From a virus: a stretch of DNA of 36,926 nucleotides. The notes under the pieces are model-generated. The model was not told where the DNA came from. It was given only the letters and a program-made list of their open reading frames with translations, and ran no database searches. Below are positions 2,966 through 16,021 of the stretch, one piece after another. Both the position numbers and the translations under genes were made by a program. The first letter of the stretch is position 1, and every line of letters starts with the position of its first letter. The DNA is taken from the IMG/VR virus record IMGVR_UViG_3300017776_003137, positions 1 through 36,926 of that record, one strand, 5' to 3'.

Positions 2966-3709
2966 TTAAAGCATATATTTATTTTTTAGATTATCTACTT
3001 TCATCATAGCCCTAGCGACTTTTAAATCATCAGGCGTATCTACTGATAAGCTAGAACCATCCATTCTAAATGTTCCTATAGTTTTTCCCATTTCTATTAG
3101 CCTCATCATTTCAATACCTTCAACTTTTTCTAGTTGTGTTGGTCCATTTGCAGAAAAATCTGATAATGTTGATCTCCTAAAGCCTAAAACACTTAAATGT
3201 TTTTTAAGTCCCATTTCTGCACCATGCTCATATGGTATGTCATGACGAGACATTCCAATAATTCTATCGTTAGAAGTGGTAACTTTTACTCTATTTTTAT
3301 CATTATGTTCATTTAAGTATTGCCAAGGTATGCAAGAAGAATGATCTGCATTTTTTTCCATGAATACTGCAACTTCATTAATCCATTGTGGTTCGACGAA
3401 TGGTTCGTCGCCTTGTACGTTTACAATAATTGACTGATCATCAAACCCCAAATGCTCACAAGCTTCATTAAGACGATCTGTACCGCATACATGATTTGAG
3501 GAAGTATCAATGGTTTTTATTTCATGAGCCTTACAAACCCAATGTATTCTGTGATCGCAAGTAGCAACCGTAACGCTTTTTGCTCTCGAAAGCATAGAGC
3601 GACGAGCAACATGTACTATCATTTGTAAACCATCTATTTCAAGTAATGGTTTATCTGGTAGCCTTCTGCTTTCTAATCTTGATGGTATAATTACATGAAA
3701 ATCAGTCAT
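2966..3709 (-). CDS. kdsB: 3-deoxy-manno-octulosonate cytidylyltransferase (CMP-Kdo synthetase)
   Basis: 247 residues, full length for KdsB. The enzyme couples CTP and Kdo to give CMP-Kdo, the activated sugar of the lipopolysaccharide inner core and of some capsules. Visible family motifs: IIPSRLESRRLPDKPL (7-22, nucleotide binding), VAT at 48-50, CGTDRL (75-80), NVQGDEP (97-103, with the metal-binding aspartate), an LExxEGxExxRLIE-type segment (193-206) and DTPDDL (224-229, second metal aspartate). It is the last gene of a leftward operon and starts five bases after the preceding stop. In a phage it would most likely alter the host surface, for example to block superinfection. Catalytic residues appear intact, so I expect an active enzyme. 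Confidence 0.9.
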   Translation of the reverse strand: MTDFHVIIPSRLESRRLPDKPLLEIDGLQMIVHVARRSMLSRAKSVTVATCDHRIHWVCKAHEIKTIDTSSNHVCGTDRLNEACEHLGFDDQSIIVNVQGDEPFVEPQWINEVAVFMEKNADHSSCIPWQYLNEHNDKNRVKVTTSNDRIIGMSRHDIPYEHGAEMGLKKHLSVLGFRRSTLSDFSANGPTQLEKVEGIEMMRLIEMGKTIGTFRMDGSSLSVDTPDDLKVARAMMKVDNLKNKYML

Positions 3710-5291: not shown

Positions 5292-6155
5292 TTATAATTC
5301 TGCCCAAGCCCTAGTATTCATTGCTCTAGCAACCACACCTTCACGATATCTAGTAACATTTTCTGGTGAGCTACTTTTTGATGTATGTGTAGCCCAGTGA
5401 GTTAAGCAATTATACAAAGCCCACTTGTTTTTACCTAGATCATTAAATTCATTATTTAATTGACCCATCAAGTTTTCAAGCTGGCGCTGGTTCCATTTTT
5501 CTTCGTAAGTTTTGCTTTTCAGCGCAACAACCTGATTTTTAAAGAACTTTTCAGCATTATGCTTACTAACTCTGGTATGCATGTAATCATTCCAAAGCTC
5601 TTTTTGATTATGAAATGTTTCTAGGCCGGATATGATTTTATCAGAAGCGCCTTCTGTGCTTACTTGTGATGTATGGCGCATCCAAACTTTTGATATTGCG
5701 TCAGGAGTTGTGCAACCATTTAAGCACCAAAGTCGTAATGCGTCAGCTGACGTTTGATAAGCCCAAGAACCATCGTATGAGTTCCAAGCGCGTACTCTAT
5801 ATTTAACATAATCACCTTTTGATGGTTCAGTAACTACATCATTAAACAGTACATCAATCTGCAATTTTCTGCCATCATCAAGCCCACGTACCTCAAAATT
5901 AAAGTCATTTGAAATATCAGCTTTTTTAATGCTGTCATATGTTGAGTTAACAACATCGTCATGTAAAAGTTTTTGATATGTATTGCGGTGCAAGTGTAGC
6001 ACTTTGTTAGTGTCGGTGCGGATTAAGCTTTTCCAGCCTTCAATTGGCTCACTCATACCCACAGGTATCACAGGAACTTCTTCAACTTCAAAGTCCCAGT
6101 CATTGTTTCCAGTAATTTGTGCGTTTGCAAAATCTAACATTTTTTTATTCTCCAT
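5292..6155 (-). CDS. DUF932 family protein
   Basis: 287 residues. It resembles the DUF932 phage/plasmid-like family: an N-terminal VPVIPVGMSEPIEGWKSLIR segment, a central block with ADALRLWCLNGCTTP (about 138-152), and a C-terminal ALYNCLTHWATHT motif (about 246-258). Members are common in phages and plasmids and have no established biochemical activity. The gene has its own upstream region with the palindrome at 6196-6214 and is transcribed away from the rusA gene. Its separate promoter suggests early or middle expression. Function should be left open. Confidence 0.75.
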   Translation of the reverse strand: MENKKMLDFANAQITGNNDWDFEVEEVPVIPVGMSEPIEGWKSLIRTDTNKVLHLHRNTYQKLLHDDVVNSTYDSIKKADISNDFNFEVRGLDDGRKLQIDVLFNDVVTEPSKGDYVKYRVRAWNSYDGSWAYQTSADALRLWCLNGCTTPDAISKVWMRHTSQVSTEGASDKIISGLETFHNQKELWNDYMHTRVSKHNAEKFFKNQVVALKSKTYEEKWNQRQLENLMGQLNNEFNDLGKNKWALYNCLTHWATHTSKSSSPENVTRYREGVVARAMNTRAWAEL

Positions 6156-6285: not shown

Positions 6286-6732
6286 ATGTCTATAAAAACT
6301 TGTGAATTTATAGTAGCTGGAAAGCCAACTGGCAAAGCTCGCCCAAGATTTACGAAGCAAGGTCACGCATATACTCCAAAAGAAACACGCCAGAGAGAAA
6401 CTCTAATTAAACAAACCGCTTGGGTTGCCATGCAAAACTCTAGGTTAAAGGTTACTGATCGCAGAGTGAGCGTTATAGTGTCCTTTTATTTTGATGTACC
6501 GAAATCATACACAAAAACTAAAACCATACTTTGTCAGTCTGGAGTTTTAGTGCCATCTAAGCCTGATATTGATAACCTAGCTAAAGCTGTCTTAGATGGG
6601 TGTAATGAGGTTGTTTATAGGGATGATGCACAGGTTTGGCATTTATCTGCTTTCAAGAGCTATTGTAAGCCTGATCAAAAGGCTGAAACACACGTCAAGT
6701 TACAATGGGACGAATATGAGCAAAAGATATAA
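6286..6732 (+). CDS. rusA: RusA-type Holliday junction resolvase
   Basis: 148 residues. RusA family homodimers cut four-way DNA junctions during phage recombination and before packaging. The family core is visible: GKPTGKARPRF (12-22), KPDIDNLAKAVLDG (92-105, with D94 and D96 as metal ligands) and YRDDAQV (111-117, D113/D114). The N-terminal beta strand (FIVAGKP) is typical. No clear Shine-Dalgarno is seen, and the frame has no better start. It overlaps the next gene by 17 nt, so the two are co-translated. The resolvase fits with the annealing protein, SSB and HNH nuclease encoded nearby on the other strand. Confidence 0.9.
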   Translation: MSIKTCEFIVAGKPTGKARPRFTKQGHAYTPKETRQRETLIKQTAWVAMQNSRLKVTDRRVSVIVSFYFDVPKSYTKTKTILCQSGVLVPSKPDIDNLAKAVLDGCNEVVYRDDAQVWHLSAFKSYCKPDQKAETHVKLQWDEYEQKI

Positions 6733-7120
6733 TATAGGTTTTACTTGTTCATCTTTTGATATTTTACATGCTGGTCATATAACCATGTTGCAAGAAGCAA
6801 AATCAATATGTGAACATTTAATTGTAGGTTTGCAAGTTGACCCATCAATAGACCGACCTAAAAAAAATAAACCAATACAAAGCCTTTTAGAAAGGCAGAT
6901 ACAACTTAATGCGATAAAATATATTGATGAAGTTATTGTTTACTACACTGAAAGAGAATTAAAGCAGATACTTAAATCTTTGCCAGTAGATGTAAGAATT
7001 ATTGGTTCTGATTATATAAATAAAGACTTCACAGGCTCTGATTTAAAAATTGACGTATATTATAATAGGAGAAATCATAATTGGTCTAGCAGTAGGTTAA
7101 GATCGCTATTGGAAAAATGA
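6716..7120 (+). CDS. Cytidylyltransferase-like nucleotidyltransferase (TagD / HldE C-terminal type)
   Basis: 134 residues from ATG 6716 inside the end of rusA; a longer frame from 6596 is mostly a shadow of rusA. The HxGH nucleotide-binding motif is clear (FDILHAGH, H18 and H21), with an LLERQ segment (57-61), IIGSDY (95-100) and a C-terminal SSSRLR (124-129) where the family usually has an ISTT/SST-R motif. The size fits TagD glycerol-3-phosphate cytidylyltransferase or the ADP-heptose synthase domain of HldE. The true substrate cannot be read from sequence. With kdsB, this is the second sugar/alcohol-nucleotide enzyme, suggesting modification of the host surface or of a phage product. Confidence 0.75.
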   Translation: MSKRYNIGFTCSSFDILHAGHITMLQEAKSICEHLIVGLQVDPSIDRPKKNKPIQSLLERQIQLNAIKYIDEVIVYYTERELKQILKSLPVDVRIIGSDYINKDFTGSDLKIDVYYNRRNHNWSSSRLRSLLEK

Positions 7121-10818: not shown

Positions 10819-11036
10819 AAGAGTTTATAAAAAATTGTAAATCTTGCCTTTTAAATAAAAAAAAGGAGATGAAGTTTGCAAAAAAACGTAAAATTGAATT
10901 ACAGAAAGATTATGATGCTTACATGAAGCAACATTTAAAGGCGATGGAATTTTGTGATTTTGTTATCGAAGATGTTGAAGAAAATATTAAAGGTCTTAAT
11001 CGGTTGATATTGAAATATGAGGATAAACTTAAATGA
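10806..11036 (+). CDS. Small lysine-rich coiled-coil protein
   Basis: 76 residues, overlapping the initiator gene by 13 nt and the next gene by 4 nt (ATGA). Very basic N-terminal half (NKKKEMKFAKKRKIELQKDY) and heptad pattern throughout; three cysteines (C11, C14, C50). No recognised domain. Encoded between the initiator and a possible helicase loader, so a role in replication is a reasonable guess, nothing more. Confidence 0.6.
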   Translation: MDQVKEFIKNCKSCLLNKKKEMKFAKKRKIELQKDYDAYMKQHLKAMEFCDFVIEDVEENIKGLNRLILKYEDKLK

Positions 11037-11500
11037 ATTATGAAAATAGAAAAATGATTGTATCAGCATGGCTATTTAATTTGTTAAAAAGATACGAGCC
11101 GCCAACGCATCTTGACCAAGACGCGGCAAGAGAAGAAATGGTTCTTATGGTTGAGGATATCAATAGTGAATTGCCAAACATTGATGAGCGTTATTTTAAG
11201 GAACATCTGGAAAGAATAGCTAGGCACGTCAGGAAAAATCAAAACTCAAGAAAGTGGCCTACAATTGCTATGTTTATGAAGGGTGTAAGAGAATACTCTA
11301 AGAGTATTGAAGCAAAAAAAGTAATTAGCGAACATACCGGCGATGTTTTAAGTCCAATGAAAATAAATGCTAATAGAATAAAAAAAGGCGAAGGTGTTTG
11401 CGAAAGTTACCTTCAAGGCGCTAGGGTCGATGAAATGATAAGACTTGGTTACATTACGCGAAATGATTTAGATAAATATCAAAAATCACTTGAAAGATGA
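11033..11500 (+). CDS. Replication-region protein, possible helicase loader
   Basis: 155 residues, mostly helical, with no Walker motif. The N-terminal 90 residues (SAWLFNLLKRYEPPTHLDQD ... YFKEHLERIARHVRKNQNSRKWPTIAMFMKGVREY) have the repeated pattern 'W..L......p.lD.....a...w...l......e.l..A......n.r.WPT...f' seen in phage proteins that sit after an O-like initiator, the position of lambda P. It lacks an ATPase domain, as does lambda P. The helicase-loader call is inference from position and general layout. It is the last gene of this transcription unit. Confidence 0.55.
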   Translation: MNYENRKMIVSAWLFNLLKRYEPPTHLDQDAAREEMVLMVEDINSELPNIDERYFKEHLERIARHVRKNQNSRKWPTIAMFMKGVREYSKSIEAKKVISEHTGDVLSPMKINANRIKKGEGVCESYLQGARVDEMIRLGYITRNDLDKYQKSLER

Positions 11501-11681: not shown

Positions 11682-12302
11682 ATGCAAATACATGAGATGA
11701 AAATTGATCTGATTATTCCATATGATCAAAACCCTAGAGATAATTCTTCTGCAGTAGAAAAAGTTGCTGATAGTATCAGGGAATTTGGGTGGCAACAGCC
11801 TATTGTAGTCGATGAAGATCAGATCATTCTCGCTGGACATACTCGCCACCTAGCGGCTTTAAGTATGGGTTTAGATACAGTACCAGTATCTATTGCAAAC
11901 GGACTTACTGATGCTCAAAAGAAGGCATATAGGATTGTTGATAATAAAACATCTGAGTTAGCCCAGTGGGATAAAGAGCTTCTGAAGTCTGAATTTTTAG
12001 AATTACAAGAATTAGATTTTGATTTAAACCTAACAGGATTTGATTTAGACGAAATTGCAAAGATGTCTGGAGAAGACTTACTACAATTTGATGAAGAGCT
12101 AGACGAAATAGAGCAAAATCAAGTATTCAATGGCCTAGAAAATGTTAATCCAAGTCATGTTAAATCTTTGATGCTTTATTTGGATACCGAAACAGAACCA
12201 AAATTTAAACAAATGTGCATGAAAATTCAAGAAAAGCATGGTATAGATAACTTAACAGACGCAGTATATATGGCGGTATCAAATGAGTGTAAAGATTTAT
12301 GA
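11682..12302 (+). CDS. Stand-alone ParB-like nuclease/CTPase-fold protein, first gene of the modification operon
   Basis: 206 residues. The N-terminal ParB/Srx fold is clear: IPYDQNPRDNSS (14-25), VADSIREFGWQQPIVVDEDQ, then the box II motif ILAGHTRHLAALSMGLDTVPV (about 48-68). A second segment, DAQKKAYRIVDNKTSELAQWD, is the usual extension in phage ParB proteins fused to DNA methylases, but no methylase follows here. The last 100 residues are acidic and helical. Such ParB genes often accompany phage DNA modification genes; they may guide or time modification, act as a nucleotide-dependent switch, or be nucleases. It overlaps the dioxygenase gene by 20 nt. Confidence 0.8.
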   Translation: MQIHEMKIDLIIPYDQNPRDNSSAVEKVADSIREFGWQQPIVVDEDQIILAGHTRHLAALSMGLDTVPVSIANGLTDAQKKAYRIVDNKTSELAQWDKELLKSEFLELQELDFDLNLTGFDLDEIAKMSGEDLLQFDEELDEIEQNQVFNGLENVNPSHVKSLMLYLDTETEPKFKQMCMKIQEKHGIDNLTDAVYMAVSNECKDL

Positions 12303-13230
12303 AGCAAAAGCCTACGGAACTTTTGAAGAGTGGGGTGAGCGAGCTGGTTCACTTATTCAAAATGATGAAATAGATCATATTATTGATTATGATTGCGATG
12401 CTTATGACAGTGATGGCAATCCTCTTTTTATGTTTCGAAAAAATGTAATACCAAAAGCATTATGTAAACAAGCGTATGGTATATTAAGAAACGCCGCAAC
12501 TCCAACTGACAACCGAGGAAATGCGGCTGGTGAGTTTAATATAGCTGATGATATTAATTTAAAAAACCGAGATACTGTTCAACCTTCAAACAAAAAACAA
12601 AAAAGATTTCAAGTTCTGAAAAAAGATGGGTCACTTTCAAAAAGACTAAGAGCTAAAACAGTGAATAGTGGGATAATTGGATATTTTGACAGAACAATAC
12701 GCTTTCCCTATTGCCGTCAAACAGCTTGGACTGAGAAAAATTTTGATCAGTTTCGTGGCGCTTACCCTTATATAAAGCATATATCTGATCAGTTTAAAGA
12801 GGCTTGTCCTGAGCGTTGGAACGCTCAAAACGAAATGGCTCAAAAAACTAATGCAGACTTTTTGATTGGCGATACTGTTTTCACGACTGTAACTGTAAAT
12901 AAGAATTTTAGAACTGCTATTCATACTGATGCTGGTGATTTTAAGGGTGGATTTGGAAATATAGCTGTATTACAGGCTGGAAAATTCGATGGCGGTTACA
13001 CTTGCTTGCCAAGATACAGGGTCGGGTTTGATGTTAGAAACACTGATATTTGTTTTTTCAATGTTCACGAGTGGCATGGAAATTTAGAAGTAAAGGCAAA
13101 ACAACCATATGAACGAATTTCAATAGTTAGCTATTATCGTGAAAATATGTTCAGATGTGGTAATGCTGATGAAGAATTAAATATTATCAAGGGGCGCAAA
13201 GATTTGACCGGTCTAAACGCGGAGCAATAA
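12283..13230 (+). CDS. TET/JBP family 2-oxoglutarate, Fe(II)-dependent DNA base dioxygenase
   Basis: 315 residues. The C-terminal double-stranded beta-helix shows the TET/JBP layout: FTTVTVNKNFRTAIHTDAGD (H214 and D216, iron ligands), GFGNIAVLQAGKFDGGYTCL, RVGFDVRNTDICFFNVHEWHGN (H265, third ligand; H262 nearby) and RISIVSYYREN (R278, 2-oxoglutarate). The family oxidises the 5-methyl group of thymine or 5-methylcytosine in DNA to hydroxymethyl. No cytosine methylase is encoded in the window, so thymine is the simpler substrate, as for JBP; this is inference. The first 190 residues may form the DNA-contacting part. It is followed one base later by the amidotransferase gene. Confidence 0.85.
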   Translation: MSVKIYEAKAYGTFEEWGERAGSLIQNDEIDHIIDYDCDAYDSDGNPLFMFRKNVIPKALCKQAYGILRNAATPTDNRGNAAGEFNIADDINLKNRDTVQPSNKKQKRFQVLKKDGSLSKRLRAKTVNSGIIGYFDRTIRFPYCRQTAWTEKNFDQFRGAYPYIKHISDQFKEACPERWNAQNEMAQKTNADFLIGDTVFTTVTVNKNFRTAIHTDAGDFKGGFGNIAVLQAGKFDGGYTCLPRYRVGFDVRNTDICFFNVHEWHGNLEVKAKQPYERISIVSYYRENMFRCGNADEELNIIKGRKDLTGLNAEQ

Positions 13231-13231
13231 T

Positions 13232-13903
13232 ATGTGTGGAATAGTTGCCGCGTATGATCATAATGGCGTTGATATGAAGTTATTCAGAAAGATGATGCTT
13301 CAAGCCATGATAAGAGGGCAACACGCTACAGGAATAAGTTATATACAAGACGATAAAGTAATCACAATAAAAGAGCCAGTAAAAGCAAGCTTGTTCTCTA
13401 TGCCTAATATAGAAACAATAGCGATAATCGGTCACTGTAGGTATTCAACAAGTGATCTTGAATATAACCAGCCTATTTCGAGTGAAGACCAAGCAATAGC
13501 CCATAATGGGGTTGTAACTCAATTGCCACCGGAAGAATGGGAAGAGTGCTATGGCTTCAAAACAACTGGTAAAAATGATACAGAGCTTTTATTAAGAGCT
13601 TTCGAAAACGACATACACCCATTGGAGGCTTTTCCGAAATCTTCAATATCATCTGCTGTAATTAGTATCGAGGCCGATGGTCCTGAAATTGGTTTTTTTA
13701 GGAACGGACAAAGACCTTTATGGTATGATTACGATGATGAAACGCAAGCTTGTTATGTTGCAAGTACGGAAAATATTTTTGATAGGAGTGGAGATTTTCA
13801 CCACATAAAAAGGTGCGTTGCTGGTGAACATTATCGTATAACGCAAAAAACTGGTTTTATGTCTTATAAATTTATTGAGGGTTTTGAGGATTTACAGCCA
13901 TGA
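13232..13903 (+). CDS. Class II glutamine amidotransferase domain protein
   Basis: 223 residues beginning MCGIVAAYD: C2 becomes the N-terminal nucleophile after removal of methionine, the hallmark of class II (Ntn) glutaminase domains. Further family blocks are RGQHATGISY (29-38), GHCRYST (68-74), AHNGVV (89-94) and TGKNDTELLL (111-120). Only the glutaminase domain is present; no sugar isomerase, synthetase or phosphoribosyl domain follows. It would release ammonia from glutamine, or transfer it to a product made by its neighbours. In this operon it could amidate an amino-acid group attached to a base. The chemistry is unproven; the fold is clear. Confidence 0.85.
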   Translation: MCGIVAAYDHNGVDMKLFRKMMLQAMIRGQHATGISYIQDDKVITIKEPVKASLFSMPNIETIAIIGHCRYSTSDLEYNQPISSEDQAIAHNGVVTQLPPEEWEECYGFKTTGKNDTELLLRAFENDIHPLEAFPKSSISSAVISIEADGPEIGFFRNGQRPLWYDYDDETQACYVASTENIFDRSGDFHHIKRCVAGEHYRITQKTGFMSYKFIEGFEDLQP

Positions 13904-14517
13904 GGCTATGTGAAGAGGCTGAAATAGTTGATCTAATTAATTCTTCAAAATCTGGTAAGAATACAAAATTTCTTTCTGCATCTCATAGTCTCTGGAAGAG
14001 GTTTGGTAATTATGACAGGTATCCACCGCTAGTTTTAGATGATAATGGAATTAAAAGCGTTATATTTGCAACTTTTTCTGTTCGTAGTGGCTATGTAAAT
14101 TTATACGAGATATGCACAGTGCAAGGGCAAGAAGGTAAAGGTTATGCATCAAAAGCTTGGGATGGATTTCTTGAACATGCAAAACAACATGATATGCAAA
14201 GATTAAAAATAAGTTGCACGCCAAGTAGTATTAGTTGGCATGTGAGAAATGGCTTAGTGTTCTGGTCTGTAGACCCTTCTGGTTCTTTAAGATCAGACCA
14301 ACCAATATACCAAACAAGAAAAGAACAGTTACAATTCAGAGAAAAAGCTATAAAAAATCCGGTAATTGCGTTTCCGGACGTTAAAGTAATAAAAAAATTG
14401 AGAGCCGAGGGTCTAGAAGATCATAACTTCGGCGTTAAAAAAGCCGCGCAAGTAATTGGCGCAATACAAGAGGTAAAATCAGCTTGGCTCCGGAAAGCTT
14501 TATTCAAACAAAATTAG
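13900..14517 (+). CDS. GNAT-type acetyltransferase of the modification operon
   Basis: 205 residues, starting in an ATGA overlap. The GNAT core is visible as VNLYEICTVQGQEGKGYASKAWDGFLEHA (about 66-94), in which QGQEGKGYAS is the acetyl-CoA loop (Q/RxxGxG/A), followed by LKISCTPSSISWHVRNGLVFW (108-128), the typical strand and 'N-G-(F/L)' motif. The C-terminal 60 residues (VIAFPDVKVIKKLRAEGLED ...) are an extension of unknown role. GNAT enzymes cap amines; here the candidate acceptor is an amino-acid-modified base, as proposed for other phage hypermodification clusters. A protein acceptor remains possible. Confidence 0.75.
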   Translation: MRLCEEAEIVDLINSSKSGKNTKFLSASHSLWKRFGNYDRYPPLVLDDNGIKSVIFATFSVRSGYVNLYEICTVQGQEGKGYASKAWDGFLEHAKQHDMQRLKISCTPSSISWHVRNGLVFWSVDPSGSLRSDQPIYQTRKEQLQFREKAIKNPVIAFPDVKVIKKLRAEGLEDHNFGVKKAAQVIGAIQEVKSAWLRKALFKQN

Positions 14518-15485
14518 ATTATCGTGAAAAAGATAATAGAAGAGAAGCCTTCATTTTATGGTTTGCTTGGTCTTTAAGATATAAAGATTGTGACCCTGCT
14601 TTATGGATGATGAAATATATGTTCGACCGGTATGAGTTTAACATAGAACAAAAGCTATGGGTTTGCTGGTTATATGGCACAACTTATTATGCTCCGACTT
14701 CATGGGTAATGTGGAACGAATTTCCTGATTTCGAGCTTGTAGGTGAGAAACGGCTTGAAGAATGGAACAACACAAACTATAAAAGACTTAGATATCAAAC
14801 AGATACAAAGTATAATAAAGGTCATTTGCCTAAACAATTTGCGTCATATTATAAATGGGTTCATACAAATAACCCAGAAGGAACGCAAAAAGCCAAATTT
14901 GAAAGTATAGTCAGATCAACAAATGACCCTTTCAAAGCATTATGGGGGGAAATTAGTAATTCTCTATATAAGTTTGGAAGGTATTCGACGTGGTTTTACA
15001 TGCAAGCATTAAAGCAATGCGCTGACATACAAACTGAACCGCCAGACTTAGTCCTTAGAGATGATAAGGGGAGCAAAAGTCACAGAAATGGATTGCTCTA
15101 TGCTTTGGGTTTAGAAGAATTAATCGGACAAAAGCTAAATAATCTACAGGTTGATATGTTAGAAAAACAAGCATCAATTATTCTTTCAGAAACAAACAGT
15201 AGATTTGGTACTAAAGGTGATTTCTATGATATGGAAACATGCCTTTGTAGCTTTAAGAAGTTATTTCGTGAGCGTGATGGTCGCTATCTTGGATATTATT
15301 TAGATAGACAGGCAGAAGAAATCAGCAAAGTGCAAAATGATGGCTGGTCTGGGGTAAACTGGGATGTTTACTGGCAAGCGCGTAGGGAAACAATACACCC
15401 TTTATTAGGGGCTTCTCGGAGAATTAAGAAAGATAAATTTGCAGATTTTTTAAAGAGTGGTAATTTTATGAGGGAATTATTCTGA
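14484..15485 (+). CDS. Amino acid:DNA transferase-like protein (alpha-glutamyl/putrescinyl thymidine pyrophosphorylase superfamily)
   Basis: 333 residues, starting at TTG 14484 with AAGAGG upstream; no ATG lies near and this overlaps GNAT by 34 nt. The N-terminal half has the block RREAFILWFAWSLRYKDCDPA, MMKYMFDRYEFNIEQKLWVC, WLYGTTYYAPTSWVMWNEFP. The 'EQKLW..wLyGtT...pTSw' pattern is what I associate with phage amino acid:DNA transferases, which replace the (pyro)phosphate on a 5-hydroxymethyl base with an amino acid. The pairing with a downstream hydroxymethyl-base kinase supports this. The C-terminal half holds a second helical part (TCLCSFKKLFRERDGRYLGY). Assignment is by memory of motifs plus context. 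Confidence 0.7.
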   Translation: MAPESFIQTKLDYREKDNRREAFILWFAWSLRYKDCDPALWMMKYMFDRYEFNIEQKLWVCWLYGTTYYAPTSWVMWNEFPDFELVGEKRLEEWNNTNYKRLRYQTDTKYNKGHLPKQFASYYKWVHTNNPEGTQKAKFESIVRSTNDPFKALWGEISNSLYKFGRYSTWFYMQALKQCADIQTEPPDLVLRDDKGSKSHRNGLLYALGLEELIGQKLNNLQVDMLEKQASIILSETNSRFGTKGDFYDMETCLCSFKKLFRERDGRYLGYYLDRQAEEISKVQNDGWSGVNWDVYWQARRETIHPLLGASRRIKKDKFADFLKSGNFMRELF

Positions 15486-16021
15486 TGTTTAGATGTATAG
15501 CGGTAGGTGGAGAGCCTGCAACCGGCAAGACAACCATGATGAAAGAGCTCTATAAGAATATGGGAGTTACTCATAATCTAAAAGCAGGGTTATTGAGAGG
15601 ACATATAAACAATACTACCAATGTAAGTTTAATGGGCTTGTATAACGATGCTGGTACGTTCTTAGGTACTGATAGGTTATCAATGGCTGTAAATACAGAC
15701 TTTCAAAAATATGTTAAAATGAAAAAAAGACATATTGTATTTGAAGGTGATAGATTATTCACAAATAATAATTTAAAATTTATCGGCCAACATTATGAGT
15801 TACGTATAATTATTCTCGAAGCATCAAAGCAAGAACTACATGACAGGCATATATCAAGAGGTGATGGTCAAAGTGATGTTTTCTTAAAGGGCAGGGCTAC
15901 TAAAATACGCAATATTGCAACAGAGTTTGGGGGTAAGGTAGAACGTAAATCTTTAACTGAACCAGCTCATTCTATACAAATGGCTCAAGAATTGCTACAA
16001 TGGCTAGAAACAGGCAAATAA
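15485..16021 (+). CDS. P-loop 5-hydroxymethyl-pyrimidine DNA kinase-like protein
   Basis: 178 residues. Walker A GGEPATGKTT (8-17) near the N-terminus; GTDRLSM (61-67) and IVFEGDRLF (84-92) are the diagnostic blocks of phage 5-hydroxymethyluracil DNA kinases, the last acting as a Walker B-like strand. EASKQELHDRHISRGDGQSD is the lid region. These kinases phosphorylate the hydroxymethyl group on a base in DNA so that an amino acid or amine can displace it. Its start overlaps the transferase stop by one base. With the dioxygenase it completes an oxidise-phosphorylate-substitute route. It ends 14 nt before the terminase genes. Confidence 0.85.
   Translation: MFRCIAVGGEPATGKTTMMKELYKNMGVTHNLKAGLLRGHINNTTNVSLMGLYNDAGTFLGTDRLSMAVNTDFQKYVKMKKRHIVFEGDRLFTNNNLKFIGQHYELRIIILEASKQELHDRHISRGDGQSDVFLKGRATKIRNIATEFGGKVERKSLTEPAHSIQMAQELLQWLETGK

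Follow-up and report, generated by a model that had tools for sequence, protein, structure and literature searches.

What base would a phage modify with an operon that joins a TET/JBP dioxygenase to a glutamine amidotransferase, and which group would it attach? The question is raised by a marine virus, IMG/VR virus record IMGVR_UViG_3300017776_003137, whose 36,926 nucleotides (positions 1 to 36,926; hereafter the window) contain, at 11682-16021, six compact same-direction genes, each overlapping or abutting its neighbour on inspection of the open reading frames. In order, they encode a ParB protein, a TET/JBP dioxygenase (TET), a class II glutamine amidotransferase (GAT), a GNAT protein, an amino acid:DNA transferase (ADDT), and a P-loop kinase. 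A first-pass annotation made from the sequence alone had described the same six genes, and the reading frames lie where it placed them; the motifs that it quoted are all present, namely H214, D216, and H265 of TET, the MCGIV start of GAT, the EQKLW...YGTT block of ADDT, and GTDRLSM and FEGDRL of the kinase. Its overall scheme of a hydroxymethyl base formed in situ, phosphorylated, substituted by the transferase, and decorated is well supported by our analysis. With a probability of roughly 0.6, we propose that the operon serves to hypermodify thymine in the DNA of the phage itself, through TET, the kinase, an ADDT fed by GAT, and GNAT.

All six genes lie on the plus strand, and four of their products pass Pfam cut-offs. 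The first is a 206-residue ParB_N-domain protein (11682..12302; ParB_N 6e-9, PHROG_620 8e-54), whose gene adjoins that of TET both in the window's phage group and in phage Tonitrus; it is probably a DNA-binding or targeting partner of TET. The 315-residue TET, a 2-oxoglutarate/Fe(II) dioxygenase (12283..13230), matches Tet_JBP at 5e-20 and has the HxD...H iron ligands and the 2-oxoglutarate-binding arginine (R278) of the family, all four residues being invariant across 18 diverse homologues. The GAT (13232..13903; 223 residues) is an Ntn-type domain without a synthase domain (GATase_6 1e-8, NCBIfam purF 4e-12), in which C2, R70, N92-G93, and D116 make up the class II set. The 205-residue GNAT protein (13900..14517) stays below the Pfam cut-off at 0.019 and was assigned by its fold: an AlphaFold2 model built from 40 relatives (pLDDT 95.4) found solved GNATs as its best Foldseek matches in the PDB, with E values of 4e-5 to 4e-4. 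Sequence searches of the PDB with GAT and with the GNAT profile gave nothing useful. Comparison of the window with a related locus (L007; loci are given L numbers) indicates purifying selection in all six genes (dN 0.08-0.15, dS >1.2).

The last two proteins tie the operon to DNA modification. The 333-residue ADDT (14484..15485, TTG start), for which family searches could have pointed outside the hypermodification families, matches PF18724 at 2e-24, and its AlphaFold2 model from 34 relatives (pLDDT 92.6) has a single credible match in the PDB, the 5-phosphomethyl-deoxyuridine (5-PmdU) glycinyltransferase gp46/PUGT of phage PaMx11 (8z2m/8z2n; probability 1.00, TM 0.52-0.64). For this protein profile and fold searches were informative, and single-sequence search was not. 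The 178-residue kinase (15485..16021), of the hydroxymethyl-base kinase kind by its motifs, which also include GEPATGKT, was placed less firmly by the profile searches that the first-pass annotation had suggested: in contrast to TET and ADDT it falls below the Pfam cut-off (Ploopntkinase3 1e-5), and its best assignment is PHROG_800 at 2e-10. The same PHROG contains gp54 of phage M6, a Pfam 5-hydroxymethyl-deoxyuridine (5-hmdU) DNA kinase, and alignment of window-type kinases with M6 gp54 by hhalign gave an E value of 7.5e-7 over 86 columns, half the length. PHROG_800 is labelled "terminase small subunit" yet holds 5-hmdU-type DNA kinases; we rejected that identity for the window kinase because M6 gp54 is a member, and the wrong name is probably carried by many phage genomes.

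How often do these genes occur together? Scanning IMG/VR with the GNAT profile, we found relatives in 317 uncultured viral contigs. Across 69 distinct loci, the neighbours of GNAT, counted where the flank sufficed, were GAT in 66/66, ADDT in 59/59, TET in 16/16, and the kinase in 16/16 cases, a linkage far beyond chance. The cassette is retained in small phages as well as in contigs of 119-247 kb. No GNAT relative was found in 50,697 phage records or in 84,980 prokaryote genomes (GTDB genome set), and clade-A ADDT, the type found in the window, gave one partial match in bacterial genomes, to a Ramlibacter bin assembled from metagenomes, where it lies on a contig of 6.6 kb. Judged by these matches, the combination is common to hundreds of uncultured viruses and not found in any cultured one.

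Within this cassette the partners are not equally constant. The pairing of GAT and ADDT was defined with scans using profiles of both, and with an ADDT tree that is quick and has some long branches. Wherever the contig extends far enough, GAT adjoins one ADDT clade (clade A). On the tree the three states of GAT (intact, degenerate, and absent) need 2 changes, against at least 13 for the amidoligase and 14 for GNAT. Minimal TET-GAT-ADDT-kinase loci with neither GNAT nor amidoligase are found in L160/L219 (one contig) and L215. Elsewhere a PF12224 amidoligase, above the cut-off in L188 and weak in L142, frequently adjoins GAT and is followed by another GNAT or by a low-molecular-weight-phosphatase-like protein. 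By gene content, then, the constant pair is GAT and one ADDT clade, and GNAT, or the amidoligase with its own companion, comes and goes. In one locus (L222 3477-5060), which lacks TET and has a thymidylate synthase (TS) homologue, ADDT and a C-terminal GNAT domain, matched by the window-type profile, form a single fused protein.

The exceptions point the same way. The glutamine-site residues N92, G93, and D116 are intact in 62 of the 64 aligned GATs, and the two that have lost all three (L011 and L042) stand beside an M6-like ADDT, nearer the glycine-type ADDTs, and a DAO-type FAD enzyme. The active site was thus lost where clade-A ADDT had been swapped for a glycinyltransferase-like ADDT plus a flavoenzyme. 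Since GAT is retained when GNAT is replaced or absent and has decayed when the ADDT type was exchanged, it is tied to ADDT and not to GNAT. This makes it more likely that GAT is the nitrogen source of the transfer step and that the group attached is ammonia and not an amino acid. The idea that GAT helps GNAT or the amidoligase was rejected as the principal explanation, as loci lacking both still keep GAT, and the amidoligase is also present where GAT is not.

The base itself had been left open by the first-pass annotation. Four clade-A ADDT contigs lack TET, and all four carry a TS homologue bearing the same Asn as M6 gp58; L222 and L237, the two examined by Pfam, have HMUD2 and HMUDK_hel, together with a 5'-nucleotidase-like gene in L222 and a dUTPase in L237. 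No TS homologue (PF00303) was found in the window, nor any above the cut-off in 36 TET-bearing cassette contigs. TET appears to take the place of hydroxymethylation at the nucleotide level. As the TET-less sister loci carry TS homologues and proteins of the 5-hmdU-DNA-kinase family, the case for thymine as the modified base is strong but not final.

The window TET itself recovered 41 loci in IMG/VR. Many have a common phage backbone and differ in the genes between TET and the terminase: GAT-GNAT-ADDT-kinase as in the window, the kinase alone, a TET-associated glycosyltransferase (TAGT), an N6/N4 methyltransferase with a divergent ADDT and the kinase, or FkbM methyltransferases. In some sister phages (L012-L017 and L024; e.g., L016 7001-8481) TET is directly followed by the kinase, and no ADDT was found anywhere in such contigs of 28 and 47 kb; there, the phosphomethyl base itself may be the end product. 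In other loci (L025, L026, and L031-L034) TET is followed by a 223-227-residue N6/N4-methyltransferase-like protein, a very divergent ADDT (25% identity), and the kinase, without GAT. In Methylophilales phage Melnitz-3 (L049 2448-6528) an HhaI-like C5-methyltransferase, TET, a 427-residue protein without a Pfam match, and a related kinase stand in a row; it is possible that this kinase acts on hydroxymethylcytosine.

For the window we propose the following route. TET, helped by ParB, would convert thymine in DNA to 5-hmdU, and the P-loop kinase would phosphorylate its hydroxyl to give 5-PmdU. The GAT, a separate, split PurF-like amidotransferase, would free ammonia from glutamine, with which clade-A ADDT would displace the phosphate to yield 5-aminomethyl-deoxyuridine (5-aminomethyl-dU). 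GNAT would then acylate the amine to a 5-(acylamino)methyl-dU, in the simplest case with an acetyl group; the modification would probably serve to protect the DNA against host nucleases. The operon, earlier called putatively complete, could on this route be so. That annotation had GAT and GNAT together finishing the side chain and an amino acid as the group transferred: GNAT keeps its part as decorator, GAT moves to the transfer step, and the comparative data on GAT and ADDT now favour ammonia.

An alternative closer to known chemistry is that ADDT attaches a whole amino acid to 5-PmdU, as in the ViI- and M6-type systems, with GAT editing the product later (e.g., deamidating an attached glutamine or amidating a carboxylate) and GNAT capping the alpha-amine. 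The characterised ADDTs reportedly use amino acids, the one with PDB entries is a glycinyltransferase, the nearest cultured homologues are of Ackermannviridae type (27-28% identity over 97%), and amidoligase genes often lie beside GAT. We nevertheless consider it rather unlikely: GAT persists where amidoligase and GNAT are both missing, as in L160 and L215, it has decayed exactly where a glycine-type ADDT replaces clade A, and phage Simon, described below, has the amidoligase without GAT. More improbable still is that the substrate is cytosine, TET making 5-hydroxymethylcytosine from 5-methylcytosine (5mC) before it passes to the kinase, ADDT, and GNAT for decoration. Phage TETs tested so far are said to act on 5mC, and Melnitz has its methyltransferase beside TET and a related kinase; set against this, no C5-methyltransferase (PF00145) was found in the window or in the 36 cassette contigs of up to 247 kb, a search in which Melnitz served as the control match, the sister loci combine 5-hmdU kinases with TS homologues sharing the Asn of M6 gp58, and the ADDT fold matches an enzyme acting on 5-PmdU. 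We would be most surprised if the operon were degenerate, modified nucleotides, tRNA, or protein, or held mere passengers of the terminase genes. Its position immediately before the large terminase gene (TerL), the PHROG_800 label, and the lack of an assayed close relative for any of its proteins would fit such a role, which is at odds with the purifying selection on all six genes, the retention of the cassette across genome sizes, and the membership of ADDT and the 5-hmdU kinases in DNA-modification families.

Several observations weigh against the route through ammonia and thymine. Observed directly are the gene content, the families and folds, the conserved residues, the linkage, and the exchange of modules; each reaction, the ammonia nucleophile, the acyl group, and the purpose are deduced from them. 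Clade-A ADDT shares only ~12% identity with PUGT, and its nucleophile is not readable from sequence; the acceptor of GAT might be other than the ADDT substrate. The window kinase does not reach the cut-off of the Pfam models of 5-hmdU kinases (HMUDK). Many cassette contigs are fragments, which weakens the absence of TS and C5-methyltransferase genes, and the C5-methyltransferase encoded by Melnitz alongside TET and kinase means that related enzymes may act on cytosine.

A broader version of the proposal, for which we put the odds as evenly balanced, is that hundreds of uncultured phages use TET as a thymine hydroxylase and GAT-ADDT as a DNA-acting amidotransferase that places ammonia from glutamine directly on the base. 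The resulting 5-aminomethyl-dU would be a hub, and exchangeable modules (either GNAT or an amidoligase together with a GNAT or phosphatase-like protein) would build several undescribed bases on it. Phage Simon (L276 4852-13084), an unannotated record from raw sewage, bears on this. It has a glycine-type ADDT, a DAO enzyme, an amidoligase, and a phosphatase-like protein in a row, as well as HMUDK_hel, Nmad5, a TS homologue, and an HD nucleotidase; the record yielded no GAT. Its amidoligase-phosphatase-like module is that of L188, and with this module common to both cores, GAT plus clade-A ADDT and glycinyltransferase plus flavoenzyme probably deliver the same amine, 5-aminomethyl-dU. From its genes, Simon is predicted to make a novel amino-acylated thymine. 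A glycine and flavin route ending in 5-NmdU has reportedly been described. The title of a 2024 paper pairs N-alpha-GlyT with 5-NmdU (ref. 27 in PMC11946847), and in tRNA glycine addition is followed by flavin-dependent cleavage to aminomethyl-U (PMC9626948). The window operon differs from that route in having no FAD (DAO) enzyme gene, which is present in L042 and Simon.

Thymidine hypermodification is already known as a kind. Among cultured phages, the Ackermannviridae (ViI-like), whose ADDT system has serine as the donor, possess the closest ADDTs, and no Ackermannviridae record was among the TET or GAT matches. Pseudomonas phages M6 and PaMx11 (5-NedU; N-alpha-GlyT/5-NmdU) share with the window the succession of kinase and ADDT acting on 5-PmdU, and similarity extends to the PUGT fold and to PHROG_800; however, M6 uses a TS homologue to make 5-hmdU at the nucleotide level, neither phage has an annotated GAT or TET, and the donor in PaMx11 is glycine and not the proposed ammonia. 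PurF, the amidophosphoribosyltransferase, resembles GAT in its class II domain, identical catalytic set, and best NCBIfam match, and in the proposed displacement of a phosphate-type leaving group by NH3, whereas GAT is a separate protein with ADDT as its partner in place of a phosphoribosyltransferase. TAGT (PF20691) occupies the corresponding slot, behind a TET of 72-73% identity, in sister phages of the same backbone; these systems decorate with sugar and have no kinase, ADDT, or GAT. Rhodococcus phage Tonitrus has an annotated five-gene thymine hypermodification locus with ParB, TET, ADDT, and kinase (PP978825, PMC11955845). Like the window, it has ParB, TET/JBP, ADDT (aGPT-Pplase2), and the P-loop kinase near the terminase gene, with 25% identity for the kinase and 20% for ADDT; unlike the window, it has no annotated GAT or GNAT, its ADDT is on the glycine-type branch, and its fifth protein is FAD-enzyme-like by eye. 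In the searchable literature, which excluded Iyer 2013 and Lee 2018/2022 (these may mention parts), we found no description of GAT paired with ADDT, of this pair being exchanged with the glycine/flavin route, of TET being exchanged with TS, or of the amidoligase modules; a search on Caulobacter phage Cr30 gave nothing on its DNA bases.

The operon lies upstream of a small gene and then TerL, in a tailed phage whose tail genes are of siphovirus type. A 155-residue protein without family matches (11033-11500, plus strand) is kept just upstream of ParB-TET in relatives at 39-64% identity. Farther away are a DUF932 protein (5292-6155, minus strand; Pfam 7e-14), a KdsB-like 3-deoxy-manno-octulosonate cytidylyltransferase (2966-3709, minus strand), and a cytidylyltransferase-like gene (6596-7120, plus strand). 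The latter two, uncommon in a small phage, perhaps alter host surface sugars.

If the proposal is true, the cassette would be a clear case of phage TET enzymes oxidising thymine, and the transfer of glutamine-derived ammonia would add a new reaction to those of DNA hypermodification. Amino-acyl bases so far not known in DNA are predicted from the amidoligase variants, and amine- or amide-bearing thymines would be relevant to the evasion of restriction, to the sequencing of phages, and to the labelling of DNA by enzymes. The proposal would also account for a modification cassette of several genes that is widespread among aquatic viruses and whose module swaps allow stepwise tests.

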